From positions 62,001-126,000 of the forward strand of contig JAJUJC010000001.1 of the NCBI GenBank assembly GCA_029267335.1: 64,000 nucleotides of DNA. Reading direction: 5' to 3'. The notes below the pieces were generated by a model. The model searched no databases, had not been told where the DNA came from, and saw only the letters and a program-made list of their open reading frames with translations. The number at the start of each line of letters is the position of its first letter. The stretch's first letter is position 1. A program made the position numbers and the translations under genes. The stretch is from Intestinibacillus massiliensis. GTDB taxonomy: Bacteria; Bacillota; Clostridia; Oscillospirales; Butyricicoccaceae. Positions 911 to 15,748 of this stretch are shown here, piece by piece.

Positions 911-2455
911 ATGGAAAAGCATCAGCTAGTTCTCGTTTTGGACTTTGGCGGTCAGTATAATCAGTTGATCGCGCGACGAGTCCGTGAACATCATGTCTAT
1001 TGCGAGGTAAAATCGTATAAAACACCGATCGAGGAAATTCGTGCCATGAATCCGATCGGCATTATCTTTACCGGTGGTCCGAATAGCGTCTATGAGGAAA
1101 ATTCGCCGCATTGCTCGAATGAGATCTTTGAGCTGGGTGTTCCGGTGCTCGGCATCTGCTACGGCTGTCAGCTTATGGCACAGGCACTCGGCGGAGAAGT
1201 GACCGCTGCGACCGATGCTTCTGCGCGCGAGTACGGCAAGACCATGACGTACTACGATACCACGAGCAAGCTGTTTAAAGGTCTGCCCACAGAGGGTATT
1301 TCCTGGATGAGCCACGGTGATTATATGGCAAAGGTGCCGGAGGGCTTTAAGCTGACGGCACACAGCAAAATGTGCCCGAATGTCGCGATCGAGGACGAAA
1401 CACGCGGTTTTTATGGTGTGCAGTATCATCCTGAGGTCAACCATACCATTGGCGGCAGCCAGATGCTGTATAATTTCCTGTATGAAATTTGTCATGCCAA
1501 GGGCGACTGGACAATGGGGGATTATTCTAAAAATACCATTGCAGCCATTCGCGAAAAGGTGGGCAGCGGCAAGGTGCTGCTCGCGCTGTCCGGCGGTGTC
1601 GATTCCTCGGTCGCTGCTGCGCTGCTCGCGGAAGCGGTCGGCAATCAACTGACCTGCGTGTTCGTCGACCATGGTCTGATGCGTAAGGACGAGGGCGACG
1701 AGGTAGAAAACGCATTTGGCAAGTGGGACATCAACTTTGTGCGTGTAGACGCAGAAGAGCGTTTCCTTGGTAAGCTTGCGGGTGTTTCCGAACCGGAGCA
1801 TAAGCGCAAGATCATCGGTGAGGAGTTCATCCGCGTCTTTGAAGAAGAAGCAAAAAAGATCGGCCGCGTCGATTTTCTGGTGCAGGGCACGATCTATCCT
1901 GACGTCATTGAGTCCGGTTTGGGCGACAGTGCAACGATCAAGAGCCATCACAATGTAGGCGGTCTGCCCGACTTTGTTGATTTTAAGGAAATCATTGAGC
2001 CGCTGCGCCTGCTGTTTAAGGATGAAGTGCGTGAATTGGGCCGTGAGTTGGGCTTGCCCAATTATCTGGTCATGCGTCAGCCGTTCCCGGGTCCCGGTCT
2101 TGCAATTCGCATCATCGGGGATATCACAAAGGAAAAGGCAGATCTGCTCCGTGAAGCGGATTATATTTTCCGTGATGAGATCGCAAAGGCGGGTTGGGAT
2201 TCGCAGATCAGCCAGTACTTCGCGGTGCTCACCAATATGCGTTCTGTAGGTGTCATGGGTGACGGACGCACCTATGATTATACGCTTGCTCTGCGCGGCG
2301 TTACAACGACCGACTTCATGACCGCGGACTGGGCGAGAATTCCGTATGAGGTTCTTGACCGCATTAGTGTGCGCATCGTCAACGAGGTGAAGCATATCAA
2401 CCGCATCGTCTATGACATCACATCCAAGCCCCCCGCAACGATCGAGTGGGAATGA
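911..2455 (+). CDS. guaA: GMP synthase (glutamine-hydrolysing)
   Basis: 514 residues, full length for the family. It aminates XMP to GMP with glutamine and ATP in the cytoplasm. The N-terminal class I glutamine amidotransferase domain (about 1-190) shows the nucleophile motif [10 protein letters not shown] and the His-Glu pair in [10 protein letters not shown]. The ATP pyrophosphatase domain carries the P-loop LSGGVDSSV near residue 225, and the C-terminal dimerisation domain ends in KPPATIEWE. The 3' end is the insertion point of the mobile element that follows. The reading frame is intact because the element regenerates the last codons. A 519-codon open frame on the opposite strand is a shadow of this gene. 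Confidence 0.98.
2443..2455 (+). repeat. attL core: 13-bp direct repeat at the guaA 3' end
   Basis: CGAGTGGGAATGA covers the last codons and stop of guaA. It recurs exactly at 15374-15386, in the same orientation, beyond the last gene of the element. The 3' end of guaA is a known integration site for tyrosine-recombinase islands. Confidence 0.85.
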
Positions 2456-2514
2456 TTTCAGAGGCCTGAAAAAGCCCATAAACACTGGGATTTTTGAGAG
2501 CTAAGGCCGTTCGT

Positions 2515-2531
2515 GGCAACGAAATGGCAAC
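2515..2531 (+). repeat. Left arm-type sites: GGCAAC-N5-GGCAAC
   Basis: Two copies of GGCAAC separated by five bases, 60 bp inside the left core repeat. The same arrangement and orientation occurs near the right end (15257-15273). The arm-binding domain of Tn916-type integrases binds short direct repeats near each end, so these are inferred integrase arm sites. Confidence 0.55.
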
Positions 2532-2554
2532 ATTTTTTCATTATTCATAAAAAG

Positions 2555-2595
2555 AGAGCTAACTGATTTTGATTAAGTCAGTTAGCTCTTTTTTT
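2555..2595. terminator. Bidirectional intrinsic terminator
   Basis: A 12-bp perfect stem (AGAGCTAACTGA / TCAGTTAGCTCT) with an 11-base loop, followed by seven T on the plus strand and preceded by an A run. It can end guaA transcription and also the leftward regulator operon. Confidence 0.8.
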
Positions 2596-2614
2596 GTATG
2601 CATTGGATTGCAAA

Positions 2615-2902
2615 TCAAAACATTTCCGTAAACCTGTCGTAGAATGTCTCTTCTTTGCATCCAGAATCAATAAATTTTTGAAGCTCAGTTTTCATCTGCC
2701 TATATGTTTTCTGACAATCGGATTCGTTACAAAATGCAGTATGCACCATTGAACCATATATACCGCAAGTGATAGCATAGTAGGCTTTGCATTTTTCGAG
2801 GGTGATACAGCAACTGCCATTATACTCCTCGTCCTCTACTATGGTACCGCCTTCAGAACCATTTGCGCCAATTGTTGAGCCATTCAACGCTTTTGTCCAC
2901 AT
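2615..2902 (-). CDS. Cysteine-containing hypothetical protein
   Basis: 95 residues, start preceded by GGAG. It begins six bases after the stop of the XRE regulator gene and is probably co-transcribed with it from the promoter at 3485-3513. Seven cysteines are spread over residues 30-80 (SCC, KC, TC, FC, DC, GC), suggesting metal binding or disulphides. The C-terminal third (QKTYRQMKTELQKFID) looks helical. I do not recognise a family. The position next to the element's regulator suggests an accessory role in element biology, but nothing in the sequence fixes it. Confidence 0.6.
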   Translation of the reverse strand: MWTKALNGSTIGANGSEGGTIVEDEEYNGSCCITLEKCKAYYAITCGIYGSMVHTAFCNESDCQKTYRQMKTELQKFIDSGCKEETFYDRFTEMF

Positions 2903-2908
2903 CCGGAA

Positions 2909-3448
2909 TCACTCCAAACTTCCGTTTTTTGATTTTCTAATCTCGTCAGTAAGAATATCGCTCAGTCCCTGAGATGGAACAACTTTGTGCCACTGTCCAG
3001 AGGTATCAAACTCAGGATAGTGATAACGCCAGCGGTCATATTCCTCCTGCGTGATCTCTCCGGCTTTTAACATGGCAGCAACCTGACGCCACGCACACAG
3101 CATCTTGTGGAGTTCAGCGGCATCCTTGCCTTTGCGTACATTAACTTTCAGGCAAATTTCGTCATCAGCTTCGCTGATCTGTAGACCGTACCTGTCCTCA
3201 AGAGTAAACAGAGTGTGCATCAGCCCAATGTAGGAATCAATGTCCGGCACAGCCAATGCCTGCGGAGATACATCAAGTACCTGAGCAAGAGAAGCGGTCA
3301 AATCCGCTTTTGGAGCTCTTGTCCCTGTTTCGTACTGAGCCAAACGCACATCAGCAGATTTCTCCGGGAAACCCACAGACTGACCCAAATATTTCTGCGT
3401 CATACCGCGCAATATGCGGAAAAAGTGAATGCGTTCACCAATCGCCAT
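2909..3448 (-). CDS. XRE-family transcriptional regulator of the element
   Basis: The start ATG at 3448 (MAIGERIHFFR) is chosen because AGGAG lies nine bases upstream; an ATG further up has no ribosome site. About 179 residues. An N-terminal Cro/C1 helix-turn-helix (MTQKYLGQSVGF, then RLAQYETGTRAPKADLTASLAQVLDVSP) is followed by a helical C-terminal part common in regulators of Firmicutes mobile elements. It is divergent from xis-int, with a consensus promoter on its own side and a shared 9-bp inverted sequence in both promoter spacers. It probably represses itself and the xis-int operon. Confidence 0.8.
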   Translation of the reverse strand: MAIGERIHFFRILRGMTQKYLGQSVGFPEKSADVRLAQYETGTRAPKADLTASLAQVLDVSPQALAVPDIDSYIGLMHTLFTLEDRYGLQISEADDEICLKVNVRKGKDAAELHKMLCAWRQVAAMLKAGEITQEEYDRWRYHYPEFDTSGQWHKVVPSQGLSDILTDEIRKSKNGSLE

Positions 3449-3484
3449 AATCATCAACTCCTGTGTCACATGTCTTTAATAATG

Positions 3485-3513
3485 AGTATAGCTTATATGT
3501 TTAATACTGTCAA
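3485..3513 (-). promoter_or_regulatory. Consensus promoter of the XRE regulator operon, with operator-like 9-mer
   Basis: On the minus strand, TTGACA (3508-3513), a 17-base spacer and TATACT (3485-3490). The spacer holds TTAAACATA, present as TATGTTTAA on the plus strand at 3496-3504. Confidence 0.8.
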
Positions 3514-3557
3514 GAGGAATCGAAGCAAATTTGCTTAATATTGTTTTGCAAACCGCC

Positions 3558-3586
3558 TTGACTTAAACATAATAGTATAGTACAAC
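3558..3586 (+). promoter_or_regulatory. Predicted xis-int promoter with the matching 9-mer
   Basis: TTGACT (3558-3563), 17-base spacer, TACAAC (3581-3586): a good -35 with a weak -10. TTAAACATA at 3563-3571 starts on the last base of the -35 and fills the first half of the spacer, mirroring the regulator promoter. The leader down to 3733 includes a small hairpin (CACACC / GGTGTG) near 3634-3653. Confidence 0.5.
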
Positions 3587-3733
3587 AGCAATGTACTTAA
3601 CAAATAAGTTTAGTGTAAATCAAGCAACTGCCGCACACCGCAAGCTAGGTGTGTCCGCCCGGGCAAATCGGATGGCGGTCAGAAAGTATCCGATACTAAA
3701 TAAGTATTACTATGCAAAAAAGGAGGAGCGTCT

Positions 3734-3931
3734 ATGGAGAACAACAATTTTATAAGTGTCGAAGATGTAGCAAAAGAGCTGGGCATCTCAAAGTCCTATG
3801 CTTATAAGATCGTACAGAAACTCAATGCAGATCTTAGGGCAAAAGGCTTTTTGACCATCTCGGGTCGAATCAACCGCAAGTATTTTTTAGAAAAATTCTG
3901 CTACGGCGGAACGGAAAGGAGAGATTCATAA
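3734..3931 (+). CDS. xis: Excisionase-like small helix-turn-helix protein
   Basis: 65 residues, preceded by AAAGGAGGAG. The sequence ISVEDVAKELGISKSYAYKIVQKLNADLRAKG followed by a basic strand (GRINRKYFLEKF) is a small winged-helix/MerR-like DNA-binding fold of the kind found in Tn916-type excisionases. Its stop codon shares one base with the integrase start, indicating coupled translation. It probably directs the integrase toward excision. A regulatory-only role is possible. Confidence 0.75.
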   Translation: MENNNFISVEDVAKELGISKSYAYKIVQKLNADLRAKGFLTISGRINRKYFLEKFCYGGTERRDS

Positions 3932-5004
3932 TGGCAGTCTACAAAGATGAAAAAACCAACACATGGCGAGCAATTTACCGCTATGTTGACTGGACGGGTG
4001 AAAAGAAGCAGACACAGAAGCGCGGCTTCAAGACCAAGCGTGAAGCGCAGGCGTGGGAGCGCGAACAGCTAAACAAAGCGGTAAGCGATCTGGATATGAG
4101 CTTTGCAAACTTCGTAGAGCATTACACGGAAGATATGAAAACTCGAATTAAAGAAAGCACCTGGGCGACGAAAGACCATATCATCCGCACCAAGCTGCTG
4201 CCCTACTTCGGCAAGTTGAAAATCAGCAATATCACCGCCCAGCAGATTATTACATGGCAAAACGAATTATTGAATCAGAAGGACGAGAACGGTAAGCCTT
4301 ATTGGCCGATGTATCTCAAAACCGTCCACAATCAGCTCAGCTCCATTTTTAACCATGCTGTGAGGTATTACAACCTACGGGAAAATCCCTGCAAAAAGGC
4401 TGGCAGCATGGGCAAGAAGAAAAACCGCGAGATGCTGTTCTGGACAAAAGAGGAATATCTCAAGTTTGCTAATGCCATGATGGACAAGCCGTTATCATTC
4501 TACGCTTTTGAGATGCTCTATTGGTGCGGTATCCGTGAAGGTGAGCTGCTGGCACTCACTCCGGCAGACTTCGATTTCAAAAAAGGTACGGTCACAATCA
4601 ATAAATCCTATCAGCGGCTCAACCGGCAGGATGTCATTACGACACCTAAGACGGAGAAAAGCAATCGCATCATCAAAATGCCGCAGTTTCTGACGGATGA
4701 GATTCAAGACTATCTGAGAATGCTTTATGACGTCGGAGACAATGACCGGATGTTCACCGTCACAAAAAGTTATCTTCATCGGGAAATGGACAGAGGCGCA
4801 AAAGAGGCTGGTGTCAAGCGCATCAGGATACACGATATTCGTCACAGCGCGGTTTCACTCCTGATTGATATGGGATTTTCGGCAACTGCCATTGCTGACC
4901 GGGTAGGTCATGAGAGCATTGACATCACCTATAATTACGCGCACCTGTTTCCGTCCAAGCAGACGGAGATGGCAGAAAAACTCAATATGGAAAGGGGCAA
5001 TTGA
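3931..5004 (+). CDS. int: Tyrosine recombinase / integrase of the element
   Basis: 357 residues, typical of Tn916/ICE integrases. The N-terminal arm-binding domain (about 1-50: YKDEKTNTWRAIYRYVDWTGEKKQ, KRGFKTKREAQAWE) is followed by a SAM-like core-binding domain (about 55-155) and the catalytic domain. Catalytic residues visible: Arg202 in CGIREGELLAL, a Lys near 240, His301-x-x-Arg304 in HDIRHSAVSLL, His327 in VGHESI and nucleophile Tyr336 in TYNYAHLF. All are present, so the enzyme should be active. It integrates the element into the guaA 3' end. The guaA target is inferred from the flanking repeat. Confidence 0.95.
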   Translation: MAVYKDEKTNTWRAIYRYVDWTGEKKQTQKRGFKTKREAQAWEREQLNKAVSDLDMSFANFVEHYTEDMKTRIKESTWATKDHIIRTKLLPYFGKLKISNITAQQIITWQNELLNQKDENGKPYWPMYLKTVHNQLSSIFNHAVRYYNLRENPCKKAGSMGKKKNREMLFWTKEEYLKFANAMMDKPLSFYAFEMLYWCGIREGELLALTPADFDFKKGTVTINKSYQRLNRQDVITTPKTEKSNRIIKMPQFLTDEIQDYLRMLYDVGDNDRMFTVTKSYLHREMDRGAKEAGVKRIRIHDIRHSAVSLLIDMGFSATAIADRVGHESIDITYNYAHLFPSKQTEMAEKLNMERGN

Positions 5005-5006
5005 AT

Positions 5007-5342
5007 ATGTCACTGAAAAATCGAGATGAACACAACCGTTGGAGGAACAAGACGGTCGCCTTTCGGGTATCGCCGGAAGAAGATAAACAGCTTGAAGTTG
5101 CCGTGAAGCTCACGGGCCTGACCAAACAGGACTACATCACCCGGCGGCTACTGTGCAAGGATGTAGTAGTTCAGGGCAATCCAAGGGTCTACAAGGCGCT
5201 CCGCGATCAGCTCGCGGCTGTGCTGGATGAGCTGCGGCGCATTGAAGCTAGTGGCAACGTAGATGATGAGATGATGGATACGATTCAGATGATTGCTTCC
5301 ATCATGGACGGAATGAAGGAGGACAGCGCCTATGATGAATGA
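5007..5342 (+). CDS. MobC-like relaxosome accessory protein (ribbon-helix-helix)
   Basis: 111 residues. ATG at 5007 is chosen because AAAGGGG sits nine bases upstream. The N-terminal half (KTVAFRVSPEEDKQLEVAVKLTGLTKQDYITRRLL) fits a ribbon-helix-helix DNA-binding fold as in MobC-type mobilization proteins; the rest is helical (LRDQLAAVLDELRRIEA). The stop overlaps the next start, so it is in one operon with int and repA. It probably helps the MobV relaxase bind oriT. A purely regulatory role is the alternative. Confidence 0.7.
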   Translation: MSLKNRDEHNRWRNKTVAFRVSPEEDKQLEVAVKLTGLTKQDYITRRLLCKDVVVQGNPRVYKALRDQLAAVLDELRRIEASGNVDDEMMDTIQMIASIMDGMKEDSAYDE

Positions 5343-6312
5343 AACAGAAAAAACGACCGCCCTCGTACCATCTGTTGGCGCAGATGGAGGGCAGCCGCTT
5401 CACAATTCAACTGCACAAAGTATACCAGACGAAAACACTGAAATCAATCCCCCGGAGGAAGATTTACAGGAACTTTATCGTCGTATGCAGCGCATGACAG
5501 ACCCGCACTATCTGCATACAGTCTCCATGACGGAACTGTACCAGACTACTTATAAGAGCAGACCACCAATCATCGACGGCCTGCTCTACGCCGGGGCATA
5601 TATCCTCGCTGGGGCACCTAAGATCGGTAAATCATTTCTTGTGGCACAGCTCGCCTATCATGTCAGCACCGGTCAAAAGCTCTGGGAATATGATGTCCGT
5701 CAGGGTACGGTGCTATACCTTGCCCTCGAGGATGATTTCGGACGCATCCAGAACCGTATGTTCATGATGTACGGCGTGGATGACACGGACAAGCTATATT
5801 TCGCCACCGTTGCCGGAAAAATTGGCAACGGATTGGATGAGCAGCTGGAAAACTTCATGCGTGAACATCCTGACACCAAGCTCATTATCATCGACACCAT
5901 GCAGAAAATCCGTGAGGCAGGCGGCGAGGCATACAGCTACGCCAGCGATTATGAAATCATCGGGAAGCTAAAACAGTTTGCGGATAAATATTGTATTTGC
6001 GTGCTGACCGTTCACCATACCCGAAAGCAGCCTGCCGGAGATAGCTTTGAAATGATCTCCGGGACGACAGGCCTGCTTGGCTGCGCAGATGGTTCGCTGC
6101 TGATGCAGAAGAAAAAGCGTACCGATCTTGAATCCACCATCGATGTGGTAGGACGTGACCAGCAGGATCAAATTCTCTACTTAAGGAAAGACCCAGAAAC
6201 GCAAATCTGGCAGTTGGAGAAAACGGAAAATGAGCATGGCGGCAAATACGCTCACCAAATATTTGAACGTCAAGTCCGGCAGGCTTCTGGACGAATACCA
6301 TGTCAGCTATGA
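5332..6312 (+). CDS. RepA-like AAA/RecA-fold ATPase, C-terminal end altered
   Basis: The product resembles the RSF1010-RepA type of hexameric replicative ATPase/helicase. Walker A is ILAGAPKIGKSFLVAQ near residue 95, Walker B is TKLIIIDTMQ, and a conserved TVHHTRKQ follows. ATG ATG is preceded by AAGGAGGA and overlaps the previous stop. After KTENEHG the frame runs into a 23-residue tail and stops at 6312. The sequence that normally follows, a helix-rich C-terminal domain, resumes in another frame from 6236. An internal deletion with frame change is therefore inferred. The ATPase core is intact. It may support replication of the excised circle. Confidence 0.8.
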   Translation: MMNETEKTTALVPSVGADGGQPLHNSTAQSIPDENTEINPPEEDLQELYRRMQRMTDPHYLHTVSMTELYQTTYKSRPPIIDGLLYAGAYILAGAPKIGKSFLVAQLAYHVSTGQKLWEYDVRQGTVLYLALEDDFGRIQNRMFMMYGVDDTDKLYFATVAGKIGNGLDEQLENFMREHPDTKLIIIDTMQKIREAGGEAYSYASDYEIIGKLKQFADKYCICVLTVHHTRKQPAGDSFEMISGTTGLLGCADGSLLMQKKKRTDLESTIDVVGRDQQDQILYLRKDPETQIWQLEKTENEHGGKYAHQIFERQVRQASGRIPCQL

Positions 6313-6394
6313 GAACAGGGCGAAGCACACCGGGCGTCAGGTCAAGCTCACCTATATGGTGATCGATGCTGTTGACTATGAAGTAATTTCGTAA
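6236..6394 (+). pseudogene. Out-of-frame C-terminal remnant of the RepA-like gene
   Basis: A 52-codon frame (MAANTLTKYLNVKSGRLLDEYH, then VSYENRAKHTGRQVKLTYMV) ends at TAA 6392-6394. As I recall such RepA-like proteins, a similar segment forms the C-terminal end of full-length homologues. Here it starts within the last codons of the 5332-6312 gene in a different frame, with no ribosome site. Confidence 0.6.
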
Positions 6395-6403
6395 ACTTAG
6401 GCG

Positions 6404-6478
6404 CGACGGTTGCGACGGTCGCAACGGTGAAATTGATACCGCCAAAACAACTGTCGCCATCGTCGCGACCGTCGCGGA
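6404..6478. repeat. Cluster of GCGACGGT / ACCGTCGC repeats
   Basis: Within 75 bp there are several copies of GCGACGGT and its complement, including the near-perfect palindrome TTGCGACGGTCGCAA and, 40 bases on, CGTCGCGACCGTCGCG. It lies between the repA-like gene and a small gene, where an iteron-like origin would be plausible. It could equally be the degenerate, low-complexity coding tail of the old repA gene. Confidence 0.4.
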
Positions 6479-6503
6479 TAGGATAGGAAGGGAAAAGAAA
6501 CGA

Positions 6504-6758
6504 ATGAAAAATGTGCAGATACCCTATGAGCTGTTCGTGGATTTAGTGTTGTACCACTTGAGAGGCGAGGATGATTTTGACGAGGATATCCGGCAGGGCT
6601 TAGAGCAGAAAATCGACGCCATTCTTAACCGGCAGCTTTATTCGCAGTACAAGACTTCCCCCACCAATGAACAACGCGAACAGGCAAGGCAGGAATATCT
6701 TGACCGCCGTGGAGTGCCGCAGAGCTACCGATGGACTGTTTCCCCCTGGGAGCGATAA
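6504..6758 (+). CDS. Small conserved mobile-element protein, unknown function
   Basis: 84 residues, preceded by GGAAGGGAAAAG. The acidic helical N-terminal half (MKNVQIPYELFVDLVLYHLRGEDDFDEDIRQGLEQKIDAILNRQLY) and a basic, polar C-terminal half match small proteins often found beside repA/mob genes in Firmicutes elements, sometimes misnamed complexin. No motif reveals the role. It precedes the oriT-like region. Confidence 0.65.
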   Translation: MKNVQIPYELFVDLVLYHLRGEDDFDEDIRQGLEQKIDAILNRQLYSQYKTSPTNEQREQARQEYLDRRGVPQSYRWTVSPWER

Positions 6759-6780
6759 CAGGAGCGTGCCACGCTCCTGT
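6758..6780. repeat. 10-bp inverted repeat after the small gene
   Basis: CAGGAGCGTG and CACGCTCCTG flank a single C just after the stop at 6758. With no T tract it is a weak terminator candidate. Together with the hairpin at 6868-6900 it may belong to the oriT structure. Confidence 0.4.
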
Positions 6781-6867
6781 GCTTGGCAGACAAGGAAATG
6801 AAGCGGGTGTATAGCGTCCTCACTGTACCTTCGTCCCCGTCGCAAAATCCGCAGATTTAGGGACGGA

Positions 6868-6900
6868 CAGACAGGGAGATTCCGTGATTCTCCCTGTCTG
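6868..6900 (+). other. Candidate oriT region: 12-bp perfect inverted repeat upstream of the relaxase gene
   Basis: CAGACAGGGAGA and TCTCCCTGTCTG with a nine-base loop lie in the 395-base gene-free stretch (6759-7154) directly upstream of the MobV-type relaxase. Relaxase origins of transfer usually have such an inverted repeat with the nick a few bases away. The nick site cannot be placed from sequence alone. The remainder of the gap holds no convincing gene. Confidence 0.5.
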
Positions 6901-7154
6901 TGGGCGGCAGATGATTGAATAATTCCATTGTGAAAGCAGTTGGTGTCCATGCCTCGGAATTGCGATGTGGGTACAATATGCAAGCCGTGGTAGAGGCTTC
7001 CGCAGAAGCCGCACACCCCGTTCCCCCTCGGAGAGCCCACGGCACTTTGCAGCCGCAGGATGAAAGTGTCATAGTGGGTTATTACACTTCCACAGAAGTG
7101 CATCCCCGTAGCTTCCAGTGCCCATACAAATTGAAAATCGGAGGTATTTTGCTT

Positions 7155-8417
7155 ATGGCAAGAGGCGATGGTGTGAATCGTACCAACGCAAGAAATATGA
7201 ATATGACAGCCAAAGAAATCGGCAATGCACAGCGCCATAATGAGCGCGAAAAAGAATCCTACATGAACCAAGATATTGTACCTGACCGTACCGGCATGAA
7301 CGTCCACCTCAAGATGCCCACCGGAAGCTACGCGGAAATGTTTGAACAGATGGCGGCTGAAGGCGTAATCTCCACCCGTGGGTTGCAGCCAGACGCTAAT
7401 CTTTACGGTGAGTTGATCTTCGATGTAAACTCCGCCTACTTCCACAATCACGGTGGCTATGAGTTTGCAAAACAATTTTACACCGATTCCTACAAAGCCG
7501 CAATCGAAATTGTAGGCGGTGAGCAGTATGTTTTGTCGGCAGTAATGCACGCAGATGAACGCAACCGGGCAATGTCCGAAGCGCTGGGGCAGGATGTGTA
7601 CCACTACCATCTGCACGTGGTTTATATCCCTGTCGTGGAGAAGCAAATCAAGTGGTCAACAAGATGCAGGGACAAATCACTGGTCGGGACAGTCTAGGAA
7701 ACGATTATGCAGGTCAGCTCCAGCAAAAAGTGGTTATCCAAGCCGGCGGTCGATGAAACCGGAGCTCCACTACTTACGAAGAACGGAAAATCGGTCTTGA
7801 GAAAATCCTACTCCGTCCTGCAAGATGATTTCTATAATGCCATGCGTGATGCTGGATATGACGATGTGGAACGTGGTGAGCGTGGCAGTTCTGAGGAACA
7901 TTTGACCGTAACACAGTTCAAGGTGGAACAGGAACAGGCACGGCTGACTGAGTTGGTAGAACGCTCTGAGCAAAAGGAAAAGCAGGCGGAAGCCTTGGAT
8001 AAAAAGATTGCAAAAATTCAAAAGCAGCAGGTTGCGGTGAGAGCTGTCGATCAGATTGAAGCAAAGCCTGTGCCGCTGTCCTCCAAGGTTATATTGGAAC
8101 GATCAGAATATGAAAGCCTTGCGGTGGCAGCCAAAAAATATGTTGCTCAGGAAAAGAAAGAATCAATATTGCAAAAGGCTCTGGATGCAGCACACAAGAT
8201 GATCGCAGGTCTCGAAGCCAAGGTTGCAGCGCTTACCAGGGAGTTGTCCGAATATAAGTCCGTCCGAAATAGGCTCAATACAGCGGGGCTGGAACAGGAA
8301 AATGAAGCGCTCCGTGGCAAACTACGGAGCTATGAAGCGGTCATTGAACGAAATGGCCTTTGGCATTTATTTAGCAGAAATAGGGCTAAAACGCACACAA
8401 GGGACGATGCCCGGTAA
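7155..8417 (+). pseudogene. MobV/Pre-type relaxase interrupted by an in-frame TAG
   Basis: ATG at 7155 follows GGAGG. The first 180 codons carry Mob/Pre hallmarks: NAQRHNEREKESYMNQDI near residue 24 and the metal-binding HLHVVYIPV near 154. A TAG at 7695-7697 then stops translation, but the same frame continues without shift (ETIMQVSSSKKWLSKPAVDE) to TAA-free codon 8417, giving a normal C-terminal region with a long coiled coil (VEQEQARLTELVERSEQKEK, VAALTRELSEYK). The simplest reading is one AAG-to-TAG change. An ATG ten bases after the stop could restart the C-terminal half. In its present form the relaxase is predicted to be cut short after its catalytic motifs. Confidence 0.85.
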
Positions 8418-8561
8418 TTCCAGTATAGAGCCGAAAAAACAAATCTTATCCGTTGGGGGTGGTCCGAATGAACACCGCATCGTTTGGGCCCTCTCCGATG
8501 GAAAATTTATTAACTTTTACGGCTGTTGAGCCGAGAAAGAACTTCAAAATCGGAGGTATTT

Positions 8562-8855
8562 ATGAAAACAGGTCTTTCCAAGAAGCAGAAAACAACAAGC
8601 ATCTATTTTAATGAGGACAGCCCCGTCATTGAGGTCTGCACATACAACACCGATCTCAAAAACAGGCTGACCAAATATTCAACACAGTACCCCTGTGAGT
8701 GTATGTTGATTGATGATGACGAGTTGGGTTGCCTGACCTTTGAGATCAAAAAAGGGAGGTTGAGCTTCAAACTGTCTGCCCCATACAGCGAGGAACGCCG
8801 GAGGGCTGCTGGTCAGCTGGCAAAGATAGAGAATCTAAGGAGTCATGGGAAATGA
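8562..8855 (+). CDS. Small conserved mobile-element protein, unknown function
   Basis: 97 residues, ATG at 8562 preceded by the same AATCGGAGGTAT leader that precedes the relaxase. The product is polar with beta-strand character (TTSIYFNEDSPVIEVCTYNT, GCLTFEIKKGRLSFKLSAPY) and a basic helical end (SEERRRAAGQLAKIENLRSH). The stop overlaps the next start by four bases. I do not know its function; similar small genes accompany mob genes in gut Firmicutes elements. Confidence 0.65.
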   Translation: MKTGLSKKQKTTSIYFNEDSPVIEVCTYNTDLKNRLTKYSTQYPCECMLIDDDELGCLTFEIKKGRLSFKLSAPYSEERRRAAGQLAKIENLRSHGK

Positions 8856-9097
8856 AAATGATATCATGCGAGTTAAATATGGATACTGCTTGGGTGGAAC
8901 TGCGGCTGGACGATGGCACGTTGATCTCCATCGATACTATCGCCGTGGAGAACGAAGTCACGGATAATATGTATCAGCGTTCAGAACTGGATTGGCTGAT
9001 TTACAACACTCCATTAGATTATGTAGCCTTGGTATTGAACGGAGACCCGGAAAAATATCTAAAAGCAGTAACTGAATATAAACCGCTGGACAATTAA
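8852..9097 (+). CDS. DUF6061-like small protein
   Basis: 81 residues (MKMISCELNMDTAWVELRLD, GTLISIDTIAVENEV, SELDWLIYNTPLDYVALVLN). It matches my memory of the DUF6061 family of small acidic proteins from mobile elements; the family number is from memory. It overlaps the upstream gene (ATGA-type junction), so the two are translationally coupled. A terminator follows at 9106. Function unknown. Confidence 0.6.
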   Translation: MKMISCELNMDTAWVELRLDDGTLISIDTIAVENEVTDNMYQRSELDWLIYNTPLDYVALVLNGDPEKYLKAVTEYKPLDN

Positions 9098-9105
9098 TAG
9101 TACCA

Positions 9106-9144
9106 CCGCCCGTAGGAGCAATCCTATGGGCGGCATTTCTTTTT
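9106..9144 (+). terminator. Intrinsic terminator after the mobilization operon
   Basis: CCGCCCGTAGGA and TCCTATGGGCGG (one G-T pair) with a four-base loop, followed by a T-rich stretch. It separates the mob operon from the restriction-modification genes. Confidence 0.8.
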
Positions 9145-9278
9145 GCATCAACATGAGATATTTACATTTAACTCATTGAAGCGCATCTTCAAATATGCTA
9201 TACTATCTTTAAATTCAGTGAAAGCTGATTTGTAATCAATAAAGCATGAAGCTGAGACTTGCTAATGGAGTGAAATGT

Positions 9279-9491
9279 ATGGCTGTGAGTTATAAGAAAT
9301 TATGGAAGCTGCTGATTGATAAAGATATGAAAAAGAAAGACTTATGCGCGGCAGCAGGAATCAGCCATGCTTCAATGGCCAAACTCGGAAAAAGTGAAAA
9401 TGTTACCACGGATGTGCTCGTAAAGATTTGTACAGCCCTCCAATGTGATATTGGTGATATTATGGAGCTCACACAAGATAGCAATAGTTAA
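9279..9491 (+). CDS. Small XRE/HTH regulator, probable controller of the R-M system
   Basis: 70 residues; ATG at 9279 has GGAG seven bases upstream (MAVSYKKLWKLLIDKDMKKK). The helix-turn-helix is LCAAAGISHASMAKLGKSENVTTDVLVKICTALQ, ending CDIGDIMEL as in compact Cro/C1 (HTH_26-type) proteins. The stop is 14 bases before the methylase start and the gene reads in the same direction, the usual place for a C protein that times methylase and nuclease expression. No experimental target is implied. A C-box was not identified with confidence in the short leader. Confidence 0.75.
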   Translation: MAVSYKKLWKLLIDKDMKKKDLCAAAGISHASMAKLGKSENVTTDVLVKICTALQCDIGDIMELTQDSNS

Positions 9492-9505
9492 AGGAGGCGA
9501 GTACA

Positions 9506-11401
9506 GTGGCAGAACAAGCAGTAAGAAAAGCAGAGCCTATTTCAGTTAAGCCTATTTTGAAATGGGCAGGCGGCAAGACACAGATGTTAGGAGATCTTTT
9601 GCCGAAAGTACCGGCCTCTTATGGTCGATATATCGAGCCGTTTTTTGGTGGCGGAGCGATGTTTTTTGCCTTGCAGCCTGAAAATGCCATTATCGCAGAT
9701 AGCAATCCTGAACTGATTAACATGTACCGTGAGGTAGCTAATCATGTCGAGGATGTTATCGGTTTCTTAACAAAATATGAAAACACTTCTGAAAAATTTT
9801 ATGCTGTCCGTAGCCAAGAGTGGACAACACTCTCCAAAGCGGAAGCTGCAGCAAGGACGATCTTCTTGAACAGGACTTGCTTTAATGGATTGTATCGTGT
9901 TAATAAGCAAGGACAATTTAATGTTCCCTATGGCAAATACAAAAATCCGAAGATTTGTGACGTGGCCGGACTGAGAGTAGCGTCTGCCGCATTAAAGAAA
10001 GCAGAAATTATATGTGGTGACTATCTATTGGTTCTGGAGCATTATGCTCAGCCGGGAGACTTCGTTTTCCTGGACCCTCCATATTTGCCCGTTTCTGAAT
10101 ATGCAGATTTTAAGCGATATACTAAAGAGCAATTCTATGAGGAAGATCATGTTGAGCTTGCAAAAATGATTATGACCTTGCATGAACGGGGCTGCCATGT
10201 CATTTTAACAAATTCCAACCATCCGCTGGTGCATGAGTTATATGCTCCGTTCAATATTGATGTAATTCAAACAAAGCGGCATATTTCATGTAATGGGAGC
10301 ACGCGAAAAGGCGAGGATGTTATTGTTGATATTCCCCCAAAACAGCGTATTCTTATTAAGCTGCTTCCCCGACCTCTGCCAGAGCAGGTTGCAGCTTATC
10401 CATCTACTCGCTTTATGGGCTCAAAGAGCAAGTTACTCTCTGAAATATGGTCTGTTGCTTCACAATTTGAGGTAAATACCGTGGTTGATCTTTTCTCCGG
10501 CTCCGGTATAGTTGGTTATATGTTCAAGGCTCAGGGTAAAGCGGTAGTAAGTAACGACTATATGGCGATGTCTGCAACATTCACTAAGGCAATGGTCGAA
10601 AATAATTCTATTACCTTGCCATTAGCGGAAGCAAATGAACTTCTAGTAGCGCATAAAGAGTCAGATCATTTTGTCAGATCAACCTTTAAGGATTTGTACT
10701 ATACGGACGAAGAAAATGATTTGATTGACACGCTACGTACTAATATTGCAGCAATCAAAGATCAATACAAACGCGCGATTGCTATGGCTGCCTTGATTCG
10801 CGCTTGTACAAAGAAGCGCCCCCGAGGTATCTTTACCTATACAGGACAGCGGTATAATGATGGACGTAAGGATCTGCAAAAGACACTTGCGCAACAGTTT
10901 ATGGAAGCTGTTGAAGCGGTCAATAAAGCGGTATTTAATAACGGTCAGGTTAATCGCTCCAAGCGGGGGGATGCAATGGATCTGAAGGTGGAGCAGGCGG
11001 ATTTGGTTTATATCGATCCACCATATTACTCCCCCCTGTCAGACAATGAATATGTTCGAAGATACCATTTTGTAGAAGGTCTTGCCCGAGATTGGAAGGG
11101 TGTTGAAATACAGCAGCATACCCAGACAAAGAAGTTCAAGTCATATCCCACACCTTTTTCTACTCGAAAAGGAGCATCAGATGCCTTTGATCATTTGTTC
11201 AAGAAATTCGCAAATAGCATTTTGATTGTATCTTATTCCTCAAACAGCTTACCTACGCAAGATGAGATGGTCGCGATCATGGCAAAGTATAAGGAGCATG
11301 TAGAGGTTGTCCCTGTCGACTACAAATATTCGTTTGGAAACCAGAGCGAAGCAAAGACGCATAGAAATGCGGTACAAGAATACCTTTTTGTTGGATATTG
11401 A
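9506..11401 (+). CDS. Type IIS R-M adenine methyltransferase, two fused D12-class (Dam-like) domains
   Basis: 631 residues; GTG start preceded by AAAGGAGG. Two complete N6-adenine methylase domains lie in tandem. Domain 1 (about 15-285) has KWAGGKTQML near 19-28, FFGGGAMF near 46-53 and catalytic DPPY at 190-193. Domain 2 (about 298-631) has RFMGSKSKLL near 302-311, DLFSGSGIVG near 328-337 and DPPY at 504-507. M.FokI-type fusions methylate one strand each of an asymmetric site, fitting the type IIS endonuclease encoded next. Both catalytic motifs are intact. From the AlwI-type partner, the target GGATC/GATCC is inferred only. Confidence 0.9.
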   Translation: MAEQAVRKAEPISVKPILKWAGGKTQMLGDLLPKVPASYGRYIEPFFGGGAMFFALQPENAIIADSNPELINMYREVANHVEDVIGFLTKYENTSEKFYAVRSQEWTTLSKAEAAARTIFLNRTCFNGLYRVNKQGQFNVPYGKYKNPKICDVAGLRVASAALKKAEIICGDYLLVLEHYAQPGDFVFLDPPYLPVSEYADFKRYTKEQFYEEDHVELAKMIMTLHERGCHVILTNSNHPLVHELYAPFNIDVIQTKRHISCNGSTRKGEDVIVDIPPKQRILIKLLPRPLPEQVAAYPSTRFMGSKSKLLSEIWSVASQFEVNTVVDLFSGSGIVGYMFKAQGKAVVSNDYMAMSATFTKAMVENNSITLPLAEANELLVAHKESDHFVRSTFKDLYYTDEENDLIDTLRTNIAAIKDQYKRAIAMAALIRACTKKRPRGIFTYTGQRYNDGRKDLQKTLAQQFMEAVEAVNKAVFNNGQVNRSKRGDAMDLKVEQADLVYIDPPYYSPLSDNEYVRRYHFVEGLARDWKGVEIQQHTQTKKFKSYPTPFSTRKGASDAFDHLFKKFANSILIVSYSSNSLPTQDEMVAIMAKYKEHVEVVPVDYKYSFGNQSEAKTHRNAVQEYLFVGY

Positions 11402-11415
11402 TTGGAGGTTGCACG

Positions 11416-13122
11416 ATGGCTGAGCAGATAAATATATGGTTGGTAGGAAATACCGGCTTACGCAATCCCAATCGAATTCAGGAGGGATTCTCTGTTTTTG
11501 CTAACTCTGCATTTGTGGGACATCTTCATGGTCGCGGCAATGAGCTTGGATTTATGAATTTGCTGGATGAAAAGGGCATTATTCACAATGAAGAAGGCAA
11601 GGATAGTTCCGGAAGCCATGCTCGAAAATGGCGATTGATGTTTGCAAAAAACGGCTTGATTTATCCGCAGATTCAGAAGAATGATGGTCAACAGGAAGAG
11701 CTTGGAGCACTGGACGATATTACGCCTTTTGGGAGATCATTCTTAAAAGCAGATACATACCCCGCAGTGCAGGAATGCTATCTCCGGGCAATGAGCGTAG
11801 AGCAATTTGCTATGCCGGATGGAGTGCATTATTTTTCTCCGTTGAGATGGTTACTTGCAATTATGCTGGAACTTGAGAAACGTACCGGCTCTTCTGAACT
11901 AAGCAGAATAGAATTCGCACTGTGGGGACATACCACCAATCCAAGATACAACTTGGAAGAAGTGGTTGACAATATTCTTGATCTGAGACAGCGCAGATCC
12001 GTCGCTCCGGCGAAGCGTCCCTTCGACAAAAAAGAGATTGCCAAGAGAGGCGAAAACTACGATAAAAAAGCTGATAACTTCTTGGATTACAGCGATATGA
12101 ATATGAGATACCTCCGCATTTCCGGTGTGCTTCAACGCAAAGGCAGAGGCTTGATTATCGTACCCACAAAGCATGTTCTTGCAGAAAAGCTTGCCAAAGC
12201 CACCGCAAGTGCAACGCCAATTATGGAGCAGTATAAGCTGCTCTGCACAGGTGCGCCCCTGCCGACCGATAATATGGATGTCGCTAAATCACTGCTTGAT
12301 GATCTGATCAAGCAGATGAAGGAGCGTCATATCCTGTTTGATATTTCTGATCTTCCACTGGATACTCCAGCAGAAATCAATATCGCAAGACAAAGACTTG
12401 AAAATATTCTCGCTCAGACCGATGAAATCCAGTACGCCTATGACCAATGTAATCAATGGAAAGAAATCAGAGACTATATGACATTGCTCATAAAAGGTGG
12501 CGGTAAGTTAGTCTACGATGAAGATAACGCCATAGAAATACCCAAGGACGAAACCCCTGCTTATTTGGAGTGGACTCTCTGGCGTGCGGCATTGGCGATT
12601 GATCATATGGTCAATAAACCTTATGAAGTCCGGGGCTTCAAGTTGGATTCGGATTTCCTACCTGTAACGGCTGCTGGTGGCGGCAAAGGTGATCTATATT
12701 GCGAATTCAATGATTTCACCATTTTGACCGAAGTTACCATGTCCACATCTTCTCGTCAGGAAGCGATGGAAGGTGAGCCTGTCAGACGGCATGTTTCTGA
12801 TGCTGTCCTCAAATATGATAAACCCGTCTATGGGATGTTTATTGCTGTTCGCATCGACACCAACACGGCAGAGACTTTCAGACATGGTATTTGGTATGCA
12901 AAGGGCGATGTAAAACAGCGACTGGATATTGTGCCATTGACATTGGGGCAGTTCCAGAAATACTTTACTGCCATGTTTGAAGCGGACAAGGCACAACCAG
13001 AAAAGCTTAGAGATTTGATTATTAAGTGTGAGGCGCATAGAGATATCTTGGAGGCGCCTGCTTGGAAACATTATATTGAAGAAACTATTAATGAGCTTTC
13101 AAGCGATATAAAATCAGCATAA
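11416..13122 (+). CDS. AlwI-family type IIS restriction endonuclease
   Basis: 568 residues; ATG at 11416 preceded by TTGGAGG, 14 bases after the methylase stop. The N-terminal GNTGLRNPNRIQEGFSVFA and the C-terminal block (YLEWTLWRA; KGDLYCEFNDFTILTEVTMS; then MEGEPVRRHV) match the AlwI/PleI/MlyI/BstNBI group. An acidic set near E385, D426 and E439 has the spacing of the metal site of these PD-(D/E)XK-type enzymes. AlwI cuts outside GGATC, and family members differ, so the exact site is a prediction. The gene looks complete, so a working methylase should be required for viability. Confidence 0.85.
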   Translation: MAEQINIWLVGNTGLRNPNRIQEGFSVFANSAFVGHLHGRGNELGFMNLLDEKGIIHNEEGKDSSGSHARKWRLMFAKNGLIYPQIQKNDGQQEELGALDDITPFGRSFLKADTYPAVQECYLRAMSVEQFAMPDGVHYFSPLRWLLAIMLELEKRTGSSELSRIEFALWGHTTNPRYNLEEVVDNILDLRQRRSVAPAKRPFDKKEIAKRGENYDKKADNFLDYSDMNMRYLRISGVLQRKGRGLIIVPTKHVLAEKLAKATASATPIMEQYKLLCTGAPLPTDNMDVAKSLLDDLIKQMKERHILFDISDLPLDTPAEINIARQRLENILAQTDEIQYAYDQCNQWKEIRDYMTLLIKGGGKLVYDEDNAIEIPKDETPAYLEWTLWRAALAIDHMVNKPYEVRGFKLDSDFLPVTAAGGGKGDLYCEFNDFTILTEVTMSTSSRQEAMEGEPVRRHVSDAVLKYDKPVYGMFIAVRIDTNTAETFRHGIWYAKGDVKQRLDIVPLTLGQFQKYFTAMFEADKAQPEKLRDLIIKCEAHRDILEAPAWKHYIEETINELSSDIKSA

Positions 13123-13204
13123 AATCCTATTAACCCATAGGAAGAAGAAAAACTGTTTATGTATTAGTTAATAATAAAGCCATACAAAAATAGGAGACGT
13201 AATT

Positions 13205-15225
13205 ATGACAGAGAAAGAGAAAAACGGGTTTTCGGAGGTAGCTGAATCTCTGAAAAAATATAGGCGTGCGGATTTAGTTGATCAAAATGGTGAAAGCATA
13301 CTGGATGAATTATATGTAGATTTGTTAGATGGAAATATTATCTTGCAAAAATGCTTGTTAGATAATACTACTTTTTTGGTGGGAAGAAAGGGAACTGGAA
13401 AATCTACTATTTTTTTAAAACTTGAAAATGAGTACAGAAAAAAGTCGGGATATTTACCGTGTTATGTAGATGTCAAAACTGTGCTAGGAACTTTATTCAA
13501 AGTGTTTTAACACGAATTTATGTGGAAATTGATAAGCAAAGTCAAAGCCTGTTAAATAGAGTGGCAGGGAATTTATTTGGTAATAGTAAAAAGACGATAA
13601 AGGAAGAGATTCAGTCACTTAGCCGCAGGATAAATGACAACAAAGAATTTCAAAGAGTCGAACTTCCTGCCTTACAAGAAATTAAAACGATAAATGATAT
13701 ATCTCATCGTAATAGTGAGCAGGCAACGAAAAGAGGCCTCTTTAATTTTGGCAAAGCATCTAATGGACAGGAACATGAAAAACAAGCTGGTGGCGAATTG
13801 GCCTATGAACGTGCAGTCAATACTGAAATTGCAAAAAAGGCCGAAGAGTCATTAACTGATATATGTCTAAAGATTTTTGACATTAGGCAAGTCATAATCG
13901 ACATTAAAAAAATATTGGGTAAAATGAAGATCCAGCATCTTGTGATTTTACTTGATGATGTATCTGAAATTGAAAATGATGCTCTTGAACTGTTTATCGA
14001 TACAATAGTAGCACCTTTAAATAATTGGTCGGAAGAATTTATAAAATTTAAAGTTGCATTTTATCCTAACAGAATACATTATGGTAAGATCGATCCGGGT
14101 AAAATTGATGTTGTTAATCTGGACTTTTACAACTTGTATTCTGAATTCGATGCTAATCGTATGGAGGAGAATGCTATTGATTTTACCAGCAGAGTCTTAA
14201 ACAATAGATTCAATTATTATACTGATGGAATTGAAGGGTATTTTGATGAAAAACCCGAGGACATTTACGAACTGTTTTTTAAAGTATCTATGAATGTTCC
14301 GAGAATAATGGGCTATATTTTATCATATTTGTATGTGAGTACAATTATATATGGGAAAAAGATAAAGAGAGCAGATATTGAGAATGCCGCTGAACGATAT
14401 TATAATGAAAAAAATTGAGGCATTCTTTAAAGCAAGTACATACTGTTTGCTTCCTATGCAAGAAAATAGAGAAATTTATCAGTTAGAAGCACTTAGAGAT
14501 GTGTTGATTTCTCGGTCTAAAGAAATAAAAAACAAATCACTTCCGGTGACTTGAGTGGAAAGTTATATCAAAAATCTTATCCATATACTAGTCATTTTCA
14601 CATTTCTAAAGACATTGAAGGATATGTAATGTCACTGGAATTGAATCATTTCATAACAAAATATGACGAGAAATTAAATAGAGATGGCAAGGCAGTAAGT
14701 ATTTATTGCTTTAATTATGGATTGGCAAAGAAAAATAATATTCTGTGGGGGAAGCCAAAAGGGAACGAATACCGCACATATTTTATTGAACGTCCATTCA
14801 ATTATACAACTTTGATATTGGAGCAGATCAAAGAAATTAAAGTGCTGAAATGTACAAATCCAAAATGTGGGCGAGTTTTTTCTGAATCGGAGAGAGTTGG
14901 GTTAGAGTTTACCCATTATAAATGTCCTGATTGTTCAGCAACAGTAATTGAAGAGTCAGTTATAGATACTGAGATTGAGAAGAAATTGAAAGGCGTCACA
15001 TTAAGAAAAATCACGGCAGATGAAATGAATGTGTTGTTGGCGCTAAACTCACAGACGAACTCAGTTTTTGCAAAAGACATAGCTACAGATGTTGATATGA
15101 ACCCTCAACGAATTTCCAAGATCTGCAAAAGACTTGCTGAAGATAAGAAGCTAGTTATCATAGATAAAATAATTGTGCCGTATAGATATGAAATTTCAGA
15201 ACAAGGCAAACTGTATTTTGCATAA
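13205..15225 (+). pseudogene. P-loop ATPase (Sll1717/FunZ-like) gene broken by three frame changes
   Basis: ATG at 13205 follows GGAGACG. One ancestral protein of about 670 residues is spread over three frames. The first 100 codons hold Walker A (FLVGRKGTGKSTIF). After a frame change near 13480-13505 the next 300 codons hold helical segments and a Walker-B-like HLVILLDDVSE. At the seven-A run 14408-14414 and the six-A run around 14530-14535 the frame changes twice more. The end carries a zinc ribbon (CTNPKCGRVF ... YKCPDC) and a winged helix (VFAKDIATDVDMNPQRISKI). It follows the R-M genes and is AT-richer than them. It could be a former defence gene, or partly sequencing error. Confidence 0.75.
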
Positions 15226-15256
15226 TTAAATCGTTGCCCCCAAATGTCATTACATT

Positions 15257-15273
15257 GGCAACATCATGGCAAC
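15257..15273 (+). repeat. Right arm-type sites: GGCAAC-N5-GGCAAC
   Basis: Same motif pair, spacing and orientation as at 2515-2531, about 100 bp inside the right core repeat. An inverted GTTGCC lies just upstream near 15232. Probable integrase arm-binding sites. Confidence 0.55.
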
Positions 15274-15373
15274 AAAATATCAGATAGCCCAAACTATCTG
15301 AATAATGAAAACAATGTAAATACTCTGAGCTAAATCTCATAAGCAAAACTGTTTAGAACACGCTTAACAGGAG

Positions 15374-15386
15374 CGAGTGGGAATGA
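15374..15386 (+). repeat. attR core: second copy of the guaA-end 13-mer
   Basis: CGAGTGGGAATGA, identical to 2443-2455. Sequence agreement stops immediately after it (AAATAT here, TTTCAG at the left end), as expected for the crossover core. Confidence 0.85.
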
Positions 15387-15599
15387 AAATATTACTGGTG
15401 CACGATTTGTCAGTGGTGGCTTGATTTTGTTGATTCGGTCGTTTCTATCAAATTGGTATCCAAGCAAGAGATCCGGCACAAGCTGGAGGATACTTTGCAA
15501 TTTGGTGATATTTTGAAGATTGGTGAAAGTAAGCGTACAAAGCAACAAACAGCTTTGCTTAAGGAATATCGCAAAGTATATTGTATTGAAGCTAGCTAG
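15387..15599 (+). other. Open-frame remnant without a start codon
   Basis: From the attR core to TAG at 15597 one frame stays open for 70 codons and reads like protein in its second half (SVVSIKLVSKQEIRHKLED, TLQFGDILKIGESKRTKQQ, TALLKEYRKVYCIEAS). There is no start codon or ribosome site. It may be the tail of an older gene left by earlier insertions at guaA. I do not recognise it. Confidence 0.35.
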
Positions 15600-15628
15600 G
15601 CACTAACTGTTAACAAAATAGTGATAGT

Positions 15629-15726
15629 GATTTTGATGTAATTCATAGCAAAATGGAGCGGCGCGCCCGCACCGAAAAGGGGTAGGTGCGCCGTGTAATT
15701 TTGCTGACGGTAAATTCATCAAAATC
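15629..15726. repeat. 98-bp imperfect inverted repeat (MITE-like or structured RNA)
   Basis: Outer arms GATTTTGATG / CATCAAAATC, inner matches AGCAAAAT / ATTTTGCT and CGGCGC / GCGCCG, and apex GCACC / GGTGC around GAAAAGGGGTA. It sits between the element scar and ribU and has no coding potential. It resembles a small inverted-repeat element; a single copy in the window prevents confirmation. Confidence 0.5.
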
Positions 15727-15748
15727 AAAGTTTTGCTTAATTTGGGGT

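Follow-up and report, generated by a model that had tools for sequence, protein, structure and literature searches.

A guaA-integrated element of Intestinibacillus massiliensis with a tyrosine integrase, an interrupted MobV-type relaxase gene and an AlwI-type restriction-modification pair

Results

We analyzed a 64,000-nucleotide stretch of the Intestinibacillus massiliensis genome (assembly GCA_029267335.1, contig JAJUJC010000001.1, positions 62,001 to 126,000), referred to here as the window. The host gene guaA (GMP synthase) occupies positions 911..2455 on the + strand as a 514-aa open reading frame (ORF). Its last 13 bases, CGAGTGGGAATGA (2443..2455, +), are the left core (attL) of a 12.9-kb element that spans 2443-15386 with both cores included. 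The right core (attR; 15374..15386, +) is an exact repeat of the left one on the same strand. Judging from its sequence, we consider this element to be an integrative and mobilizable element (IME) with a tyrosine integrase and a MobV-type relaxase, located at the guaA 3' end with the 13-bp repeat as its boundaries and carrying an AlwI-type restriction-modification (R-M) pair, with a probability of about 0.92. The ends of the element, its gene content, the damage to its genes and the guaA address of its family are established by sequence.

The genes between the two cores are those of a mobilizable element. An excisionase-like protein (3734..3931, +) scored 56 bits against the NCBIfam ICEBs1 Xis model, below the cut-off of 100, and is followed by an open tyrosine integrase gene (3931..5004, +) with Pfam Phage_integrase, SAM-like and arm-binding domains. 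Next come a MobC/NikA-like mobilization accessory (5001..5342, +; Pfam NikA-like) and a RepA-like ATPase (5332..6312, +; Pfam AAA_25) that has lost its C-terminus when compared with locus L096. The interrupted MobV-type relaxase gene (7155..8417, +) matches Pfam Mob_Pre above the cut-off and NCBIfam MobV at 40 bits, below the cut-off of 100. These matches bear out a preliminary description of this DNA, made from the letters alone, which had placed xis, int, mobC-like, repA-like and relaxase genes between the repeats. It had also stated that conjugation genes are absent, and no conjugation-pore or coupling-protein family was matched among the 17 element ORFs scanned with Pfam. The same scan found no type IV secretion system of the element's own, as a Tn5801/Tn916-type integrative and conjugative element (ICE) would have. 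The element has its own integrase and matched att sites, as expected of an IME, while its relaxase gene is recognizable yet interrupted and an oriT-like motif is conserved. The insertion lies in the last guaA codons and leaves the gene whole, as expected for a guaA-specific integrase.

Both ends of the element are well defined. CGAGTGGGAATGA occurs exactly twice in the assembly (2,205,012 bases, 10 contigs), each time at an element end, and the reversed control pattern does not occur there. Given the base composition, about 0.0008 further exact copies are expected in the window (+ strand) and 0.055 across both strands of the genome. A search that allowed two mismatches was uninformative (3 matches versus a shuffle mean of 1.63). 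The repeat is thus confirmed as a unique directly oriented pair, as first described. guaA itself has one full-length match in its own genome; two further matches, partial and 29-31% identical, probably represent other proteins.

A related element in the same family provides independent evidence for these ends. Genome G006 (locus L034) contains an element with an 87% identical integrase, and its left and right ends are homologous to those of the window element at the same core. The left-end sequence of the window directly follows guaA in G006, and 9.4 kb further on lies a homologue of window positions 15215-15386 that ends in CAGGAGCGGGTGGGAATAA. Similarity to the window fades just beyond the core at both junctions. 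The two G006 cores differ on either side of GTGGGAAT: on the left, A in the guaA-side copy corresponds to G in the far copy; on the right, TAA in the far copy stands against TGA in the guaA-side copy and in the window. If the left part of the far copy and the right part of the guaA-side copy derive from the element, this suggests that crossover occurs within GTGGGAAT. Under the same condition, the 13-bp identity in the window would consist of GTGGGAAT plus flanking agreement.

The DNA inside each core carries putative arm-type sites at fixed distances. A left pair, TGGCAAC-N4-TGGCAAC (2514..2532, +), has 11-bp spacing and lies 70 bp from the core, and a right pair of the same form (15256..15274, +) lies 119 bp before the core. 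We looked for such pairs in 85 sequences, comprising 80 named loci (the best 80 of 487 found with this integrase), the window, and L034, L092, L094 and L101. GGCAAC pairs 11 bp apart were found in 58 of the 85, and the reversed pattern in none. The left pair lies 70 bp from the core in 36 sequences, 71 bp in 6 and 69 bp in 2, so that 44 sequences fall within 69-71 bp; the right pair lies 119 bp from the core in 10 sequences. This count demands a TGG-type core, which 11 of the 58 lack at such distances; nine of these 11 have another codon there, the exceptions being L139 and L180. A further 20 guaA-adjacent junctions have no GGCAAC pair, and all 20 contain another 11-bp-spaced pair of the GATAAC, GATAAG or GACAAC type 57-60 bp past the gene. 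This pair search had no shuffled control, and 9 of the 20 junctions are near-identical copies of one element. The arm-type sites are probably bound by the integrase.

These observations bear on the possibility that the 13-bp pair is a coincidence and that the element ends elsewhere. Thirteen bases is a short repeat, and positions 15387-15600 form an orphan stretch of low G+C content (38.8%) that could be element DNA. Set against this are the chance expectation of 0.055 recurrences in the genome, the homologous right ends that stop at the same core in several elements, and the fixed 119-bp spacing between right arm pair and core. Coincidence is therefore very improbable and already largely refuted. 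The G006 homology and the arm-core spacings independently support both 2443 and 15386, the boundaries originally proposed.

We found matches to the integrase at E 1e-60 or better in 49 of 295 genomes of the order, including its own. Among the best 80 of 487 loci, 59 could be evaluated in having more than 3 kb of DNA upstream of int. The guaA 3' end lies within 3 kb upstream in 43 of these 59, a core-like sequence only in 14, and neither in 2. The core-like sequence in L114, L115 and L126 is apparently the inner junction of a tandem array. The 21 loci with shorter upstream DNA comprise 7 with guaA, 2 with a core and 12 with neither. In a further comparison of 21 loci, a homologue of the excisionase-like protein precedes int in every one. 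Together with the homologous G006 ends and the fixed arm-core spacings, this shared address supports the original placement of a mobilizable, integrase-type element at the guaA 3' end.

Additional arrangements were seen at some related loci. In L114, L115, L126, L092 and L109, guaA elements appear to stand in tandem, with a new core where one element meets the next. An additional guaA-like gene is present at or near the guaA site of L042, L095, L036, L037 and L039, in many cases with a match confined to the C-terminal part; this gene is followed by an element-type end in L042 and L095.

We compared the flanks of the element with those of related genomes. The preliminary description had predicted that relatives lacking the element would show one core at guaA followed by sequence like that from 15387. 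This comparison was decided in neither direction, as none of the other 86 of 87 family genomes contains a match to positions 15387-15793. The genus is represented by one other genome among those searched, G001, in which a different sequence follows guaA and the 17.5 kb read show no integrase match. An empty site matching 2456 onward, named in the preliminary description as the refuting case, was not seen among 30 guaA loci, the window's own included. Sequences resembling 2456 onward occur closely in L005 (G006) and L010 (G011) and less closely in L006 (G028) and L015 (G045). The G006 locus is occupied by the related element, G028 has the regulator gene of the element, and the G011 contig ends too soon. 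The gene on the right flank of the G006 element was found in 8 of 24 other genomes of the genus. Since that gene lies away from guaA and the core in these eight relatives, we conclude that the neighborhood is too unstable for an empty-site comparison. The downstream ECF transporter gene does not adjoin guaA in G001, G005, G006, G019 or G022. Patterns for a circle or tandem junction and for the right junction each gave 0 matches in viral contigs.

Two features were observed just beyond the right core. A 70-aa open frame of low G+C content (15387-15599) is in register with the core. Of the other 98 of 99 genomes, G022 alone has a match to it, a weak one (E 6e-4); the frame is perhaps a remnant of an earlier element. 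A self-complementary stretch of about 45 bases (15749-15794) precedes the end of the convergent ECF transporter gene and is probably its terminator.

Several observations weigh against our interpretation. The left spacing is 121 bp in three sequences and the right spacing is 121 bp in one. An empty-site relative with a matching right flank was not found. No guaA match or core-like sequence lies within 1.5 kb of the G006 right-flank gene in the eight genomes that contain it, a weak test in that the core pattern would also miss the variant core of G006 itself. In the left-end hairpin described below, further pair types in the stem number 8 versus a shuffled mean of 7.3, a value reached by 203 of 500 shuffles, and so lend no support to a selected structure. 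The broken frames could partly be assembly errors, and the restriction specificity is assigned by family alone. Finally, excision, the crossover point, insulation, restriction activity and transfer history are inferred from the sequence.

A strong hairpin with an A-run before it and a T-run after it lies at 2547..2597 (-29.4 kcal/mol, z -7.7). Each of the 44 junctions spaced at 69-71 bp carries a terminator-like hairpin about 100 bp past guaA, compared with 22 of 440 mononucleotide-shuffled regions. A terminator-like hairpin is also present at all 20 alternative-pair junctions, versus 15 of 200 shuffled regions. Across 41 distinct sequences, 99.8% of the 11-bp stem is paired, versus 19-43% in slid controls. 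Changes on both sides of the stem occur at 5 of 11 pairs and in 42 cells (shuffled means, 2.8 and 12.7), values reached by none of 500 shuffles. These covariation counts are inflated by relatedness, and the stem was read from the window's own sequence. Even so qualified, the replacement of pairs by other pair types through changes on both sides points to a selected structure. An earlier hairpin within 2441-2520, the first past guaA, was rejected as the terminator; it folds no better than shuffles (z -0.55). We consider 2547-2597 a probable insulator of the element and replacement terminator for guaA.

The right end also contains a hairpin, TCAGATAG...CTATCTGA (15280..15301), which follows the right arm pair and is terminator-like on the - strand (fold z -9.8). 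By eye, it is clear in 8 of 11 right ends, weak in L126 and not seen in L150 or L101.

We identified a probable oriT/nic region at 7063..7100 (+), consisting of AAAGTGTCATAGTGGGTTATTACACTT and the short inverted repeat that follows it. Within AAAGTGTCATAGTGGGTTATTACACTT, the motif TAGTGGGTTAT (7072-7082) lies 83 bp ahead of the relaxase start. It was found 77-98 bp upstream of the relaxase gene in all 14 matches whose relaxase is at least 57% identical and in none of the 5 whose relaxase is 45% identical or less. Some of the fourteen are closely related, and L096 and L121, among the five, are the same DNA. The motif resembles the nick regions of MobV plasmids. This conservation upstream of related relaxases makes 7063-7100 the likely oriT. 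The preliminary description had named an oriT-like hairpin and given no coordinates for it. A strong hairpin does exist at 6758..6780 (fold of 6755-6795, -20.2 kcal/mol, z -3.9) and is possibly the one intended; as a candidate for oriT it was passed over in favor of 7063-7100, where the conserved motif lies.

Several other genes were annotated. Nearest the left end are a hypothetical protein (2615..2902, -), an ORF with no Pfam or NCBIfam match, and a regulator that belongs to the backbone (2909..3469, -; Pfam HTH_3), a homologue of which occupies the same place in 20 of 21 loci and was not detected in L097. Two conserved small backbone proteins lie on either side of the relaxase gene (6504..6758, +, 91.6% identical to the L096 homologue; 8526..8855, +, 69.9%). 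A DUF6061 protein (8852..9097, +; Pfam, 131 bits) and a Cro/C1-type HTH protein (9246..9491, +; Pfam HTH_26) follow.

Three genes of the window copy are broken. The relaxase frame that begins at 7155 meets an in-frame TAG at 7695-7697, after 180 residues. Compared with L096, RepA has lost part of its C-terminal region and its frame through a deletion with frameshift. The last cargo gene (13205..15225, +) is present as three separate open pieces. Because these pieces (13205-13510, 13459-14418 and 14551-15225) align one after another to single frames of about 700 aa, we interpret them as one pseudogene of a P-loop ATPase with a C-terminal zinc-ribbon/winged-helix part. Its full-length counterparts are a 718-aa Enterobacter plasmid protein and two clostridial frames, and the broken genes have intact relatives. 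Open frames of at least 150 aa, counted in any frame, cover 78% of the element, compared with 93-99% of the rest of the window (93% of the part downstream). This contrast argues against a general assembly error; local errors remain compatible with it. The Enterobacter plasmid and clostridial counterparts (L199:2635-4791, L201, L202) encode P-loop ATPases of about 700 aa with a C-terminal winged helix, whose sole NCBIfam match is the Sll1717 family, below the cut-off.

The relaxase stop, the truncated repA and the pseudogene make the present mobility of the window copy doubtful, and the term mobilizable, used in the preliminary description, fits the ancestry of the element. A MobV-type relaxase, MobC and an oriT-like motif can all be recognized; relaxase and repA are broken in this copy. 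One could suppose that the IME is still fully working, with the relaxase stop read through or a second relaxase acting in trans. The integrase, xis-like gene, MobC and oriT-like motif are open or present, and a match to a VirD4-type coupling protein elsewhere in the genome (G000:C1:453976-455274) is a possible sign of a helper conjugative element. The three broken genes speak against this, as do the relaxases of relatives, none of which has a stop in the matched stretch (0 of 19 matches). We therefore regard a fully working element as unlikely.

The cargo includes an R-M pair with both genes open. A fused two-domain adenine methyltransferase (9506..11401, +) matches the Pfam D12 class and the PADLOC type II methyltransferase model (1176 bits over 13-631). 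Beside it lies an AlwI-type (type IIS) restriction endonuclease (11398..13122, +), which matches Pfam RE_AlwI at 330 bits over positions 4-439 of 441 and PADLOC REase_II at 511 bits. Pairing of an AlwI-family endonuclease with a two-domain methyltransferase is the arrangement expected for an asymmetric recognition site. These family matches support the type IIS system proposed in the preliminary description. We take the predicted specificity of such a pair to be cutting and methylating GGATC. Relatives of the endonuclease (E 1e-20 or better) were found in two other genomes among 291 of the class, its own included, at 74% and 47% identity, and both adjoin a related methyltransferase. The Erysipelothrix phage phi1605 encodes a 43% identical relative annotated as type IIs.

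We considered whether element relatives share this system. L122 has a different R-M system (23-25% identity), and the window pair was therefore not inherited with this integrase type there. The Cro/C1-type HTH protein is also present on L091, L107, L114, L126 and others. It is probably not an R-M controller, because it occurs on relatives in which R-M genes were not detected.

R-M genes that stay open while other genes are broken raise the question of whether the pair holds the element in place by post-segregational killing, so that a decayed IME persists. R-M cargo on such islands is among the examples listed in a review (PMC5704250). Against this, GGATC occurs 59 times in the whole window where shorter words predict about 75, a deficit too slight to prove anything, long-standing restriction included. 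The restriction and addiction roles are, moreover, predictions from gene sequence. We view retention by killing as conceivable and rather less than an even prospect.

A prophage remnant or phage satellite, in place of a conjugation-mobilized element, could also carry an integrase of this broad kind. Indeed, 2319 phage records match, 2317 of them at less than 60% identity. The MobV-type relaxase, MobC and oriT-like motif point away from a phage, and no structural or packaging family was found among the Pfam matches of the element ORFs. A pattern scan of IMG/VR recovered just 7 stretches that match the integrase, the best at 64% and partial. Phage origin was set aside as very improbable.

Discussion

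Our analysis supports the following model for an ancestral IME at guaA. The integrase would probably bind arm-type sites at both ends and exchange strands inside GTGGGAAT. guaA would stay whole since GTGGGAAT is part of the codons for its last residues. The bases just past the crossover, among them the last two of the stop codon, would come from the element, as would a new terminator roughly 100 bp further on. After excision, the MobV relaxase, helped by MobC, would nick the circle at the oriT near 7063-7100, and the circle would be transferred through the conjugation pore of another element. With int and xis open, the window copy perhaps still excises; it is probably stuck unless helped in trans.

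The element is ordinary in kind, as guaA 3' ends are already described as a landing site for ICEs and IMEs. Its closest described relation in our comparison is a guaA element of Merdimmobilis hominis (NZ_LT629939.1; L114), whose integrase is 88%, MobC 78% and RepA 78% identical and whose arm spacings and core are the same as in the window. The L114 relaxase is 73% identical over 280 aligned positions and, unlike that of the window, has no stop in the matched stretch. L114 also differs as the second of two tandem elements after guaA, and the R-M pair of the window was not detected in it. Other guaA elements can be likened by description, not by sequence. ATE-1 of Trueperella pyogenes is presented as an IME with a tyrosine integrase at the guaA 3' end and a MobV relaxase (PMC5704250), but has an Actinomycetota host and carries tet(W) (PMC12904643). 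GIsul2 is likewise described as an IME at the guaA 3' end; its proposed core, GAGTGGGA, overlaps the window core and GTGGGAAT, and its report demonstrates excision and integration by its integrase (PMC9376610). It differs in its gammaproteobacterial hosts and in carrying sul2 and other genes.

Further guaA elements have been described as well. Tn5801 and relatives in the Tn916 family share the guaA 3' end with 11-bp direct repeats (PMC4844618) and a predicted left-end terminator (PMC11658703). Tn5801 is, however, a putative conjugative element that encodes conjugation genes of its own and carries tet(M) (PMC4844618). Streptococcal Tyr_3 IMEs and ICE_SmiB6_guaA have guaA-specific tyrosine integrases and repeats that hold exactly the 3' end of the gene (PMC5357655, PMC4701971), whereas MobV occurs among the streptococcal tyrosine-integrase IMEs of that collection only together with MobT (PMC5357655). 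We recognized no description of the present family in literature on guaA with mobilizable or island terms, gut or clostridial terms, lincosamide nucleotidyltransferase or host names, judged on titles and abstract starts apart from the works cited for guaA elements.

The left-end hairpin invites comparison with Tn916. A left-end terminator of Tn916 was shown experimentally to insulate the element, and terminators are predicted in relatives including Tn5801, according to the account in PMC11658703. By analogy with T1 of Tn916, the left terminator here probably halts guaA transcription before it enters the element. The principle of insulation is already known, and our analysis adds its probable occurrence in this IME family. 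This suggests that elements residing behind active genes generally have to be insulated from the target gene, with Tn916 as the sole experimental case in the literature considered.

We also identified an 8.8-kb sister guaA element in near-identical copies (99.7-99.9%) at L181, L182, L184, L185, L186, L188, L189, L190 and L191. Its hosts belong to several clostridial lineages and include Levyella, two Blautia, Ruminococcus bromii, Butyribacter, Pseudoramibacter and Hominisplanchenecus. Of the nine copies, seven have unlike left and right cores (L181, L182, L184, L185, L188, L189 and L190), and in L186 and L191 the two cores agree. The penultimate guaA codon appears in these cores as TGG, TTT, TTA, TTC or ATG. 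The cores of L142, which has the window's own arm type, also appear to differ; no junction was obtained for L192, which is 94% identical to the sister element. Among its genes, the sister element carries an ABC-F-like and a lincosamide-nucleotidyltransferase-like gene, both below NCBIfam cut-offs.

The coupling sequences of Tn916 and CTnDOT are cases in which a mismatch in the overlap is accepted and carried along. We tentatively suggest, at somewhat short of even odds, that the guaA-targeting integrase family of gut clostridia tolerates a crossover mismatch in the same way and carries the guaA stretch of the previous host to the next one. No literature joining guaA with overlap-mismatch or coupling-sequence terms was found.

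This work adds a precise account of a large family of integrases in gut clostridia. Their attachment regions preserve spacing to the base together with a terminator-like hairpin upheld by compensatory changes. If mismatches are indeed tolerated, the right core would be a record of the donor lineage, and the identical cores of the window would mean a donor with the same guaA codons. Integration could at times rewrite the penultimate codon of guaA, which encodes an essential enzyme. A few bases in the mismatched cores of the sister element might then be enough to trace the donor lineages of a gut element that carries resistance-like cargo.

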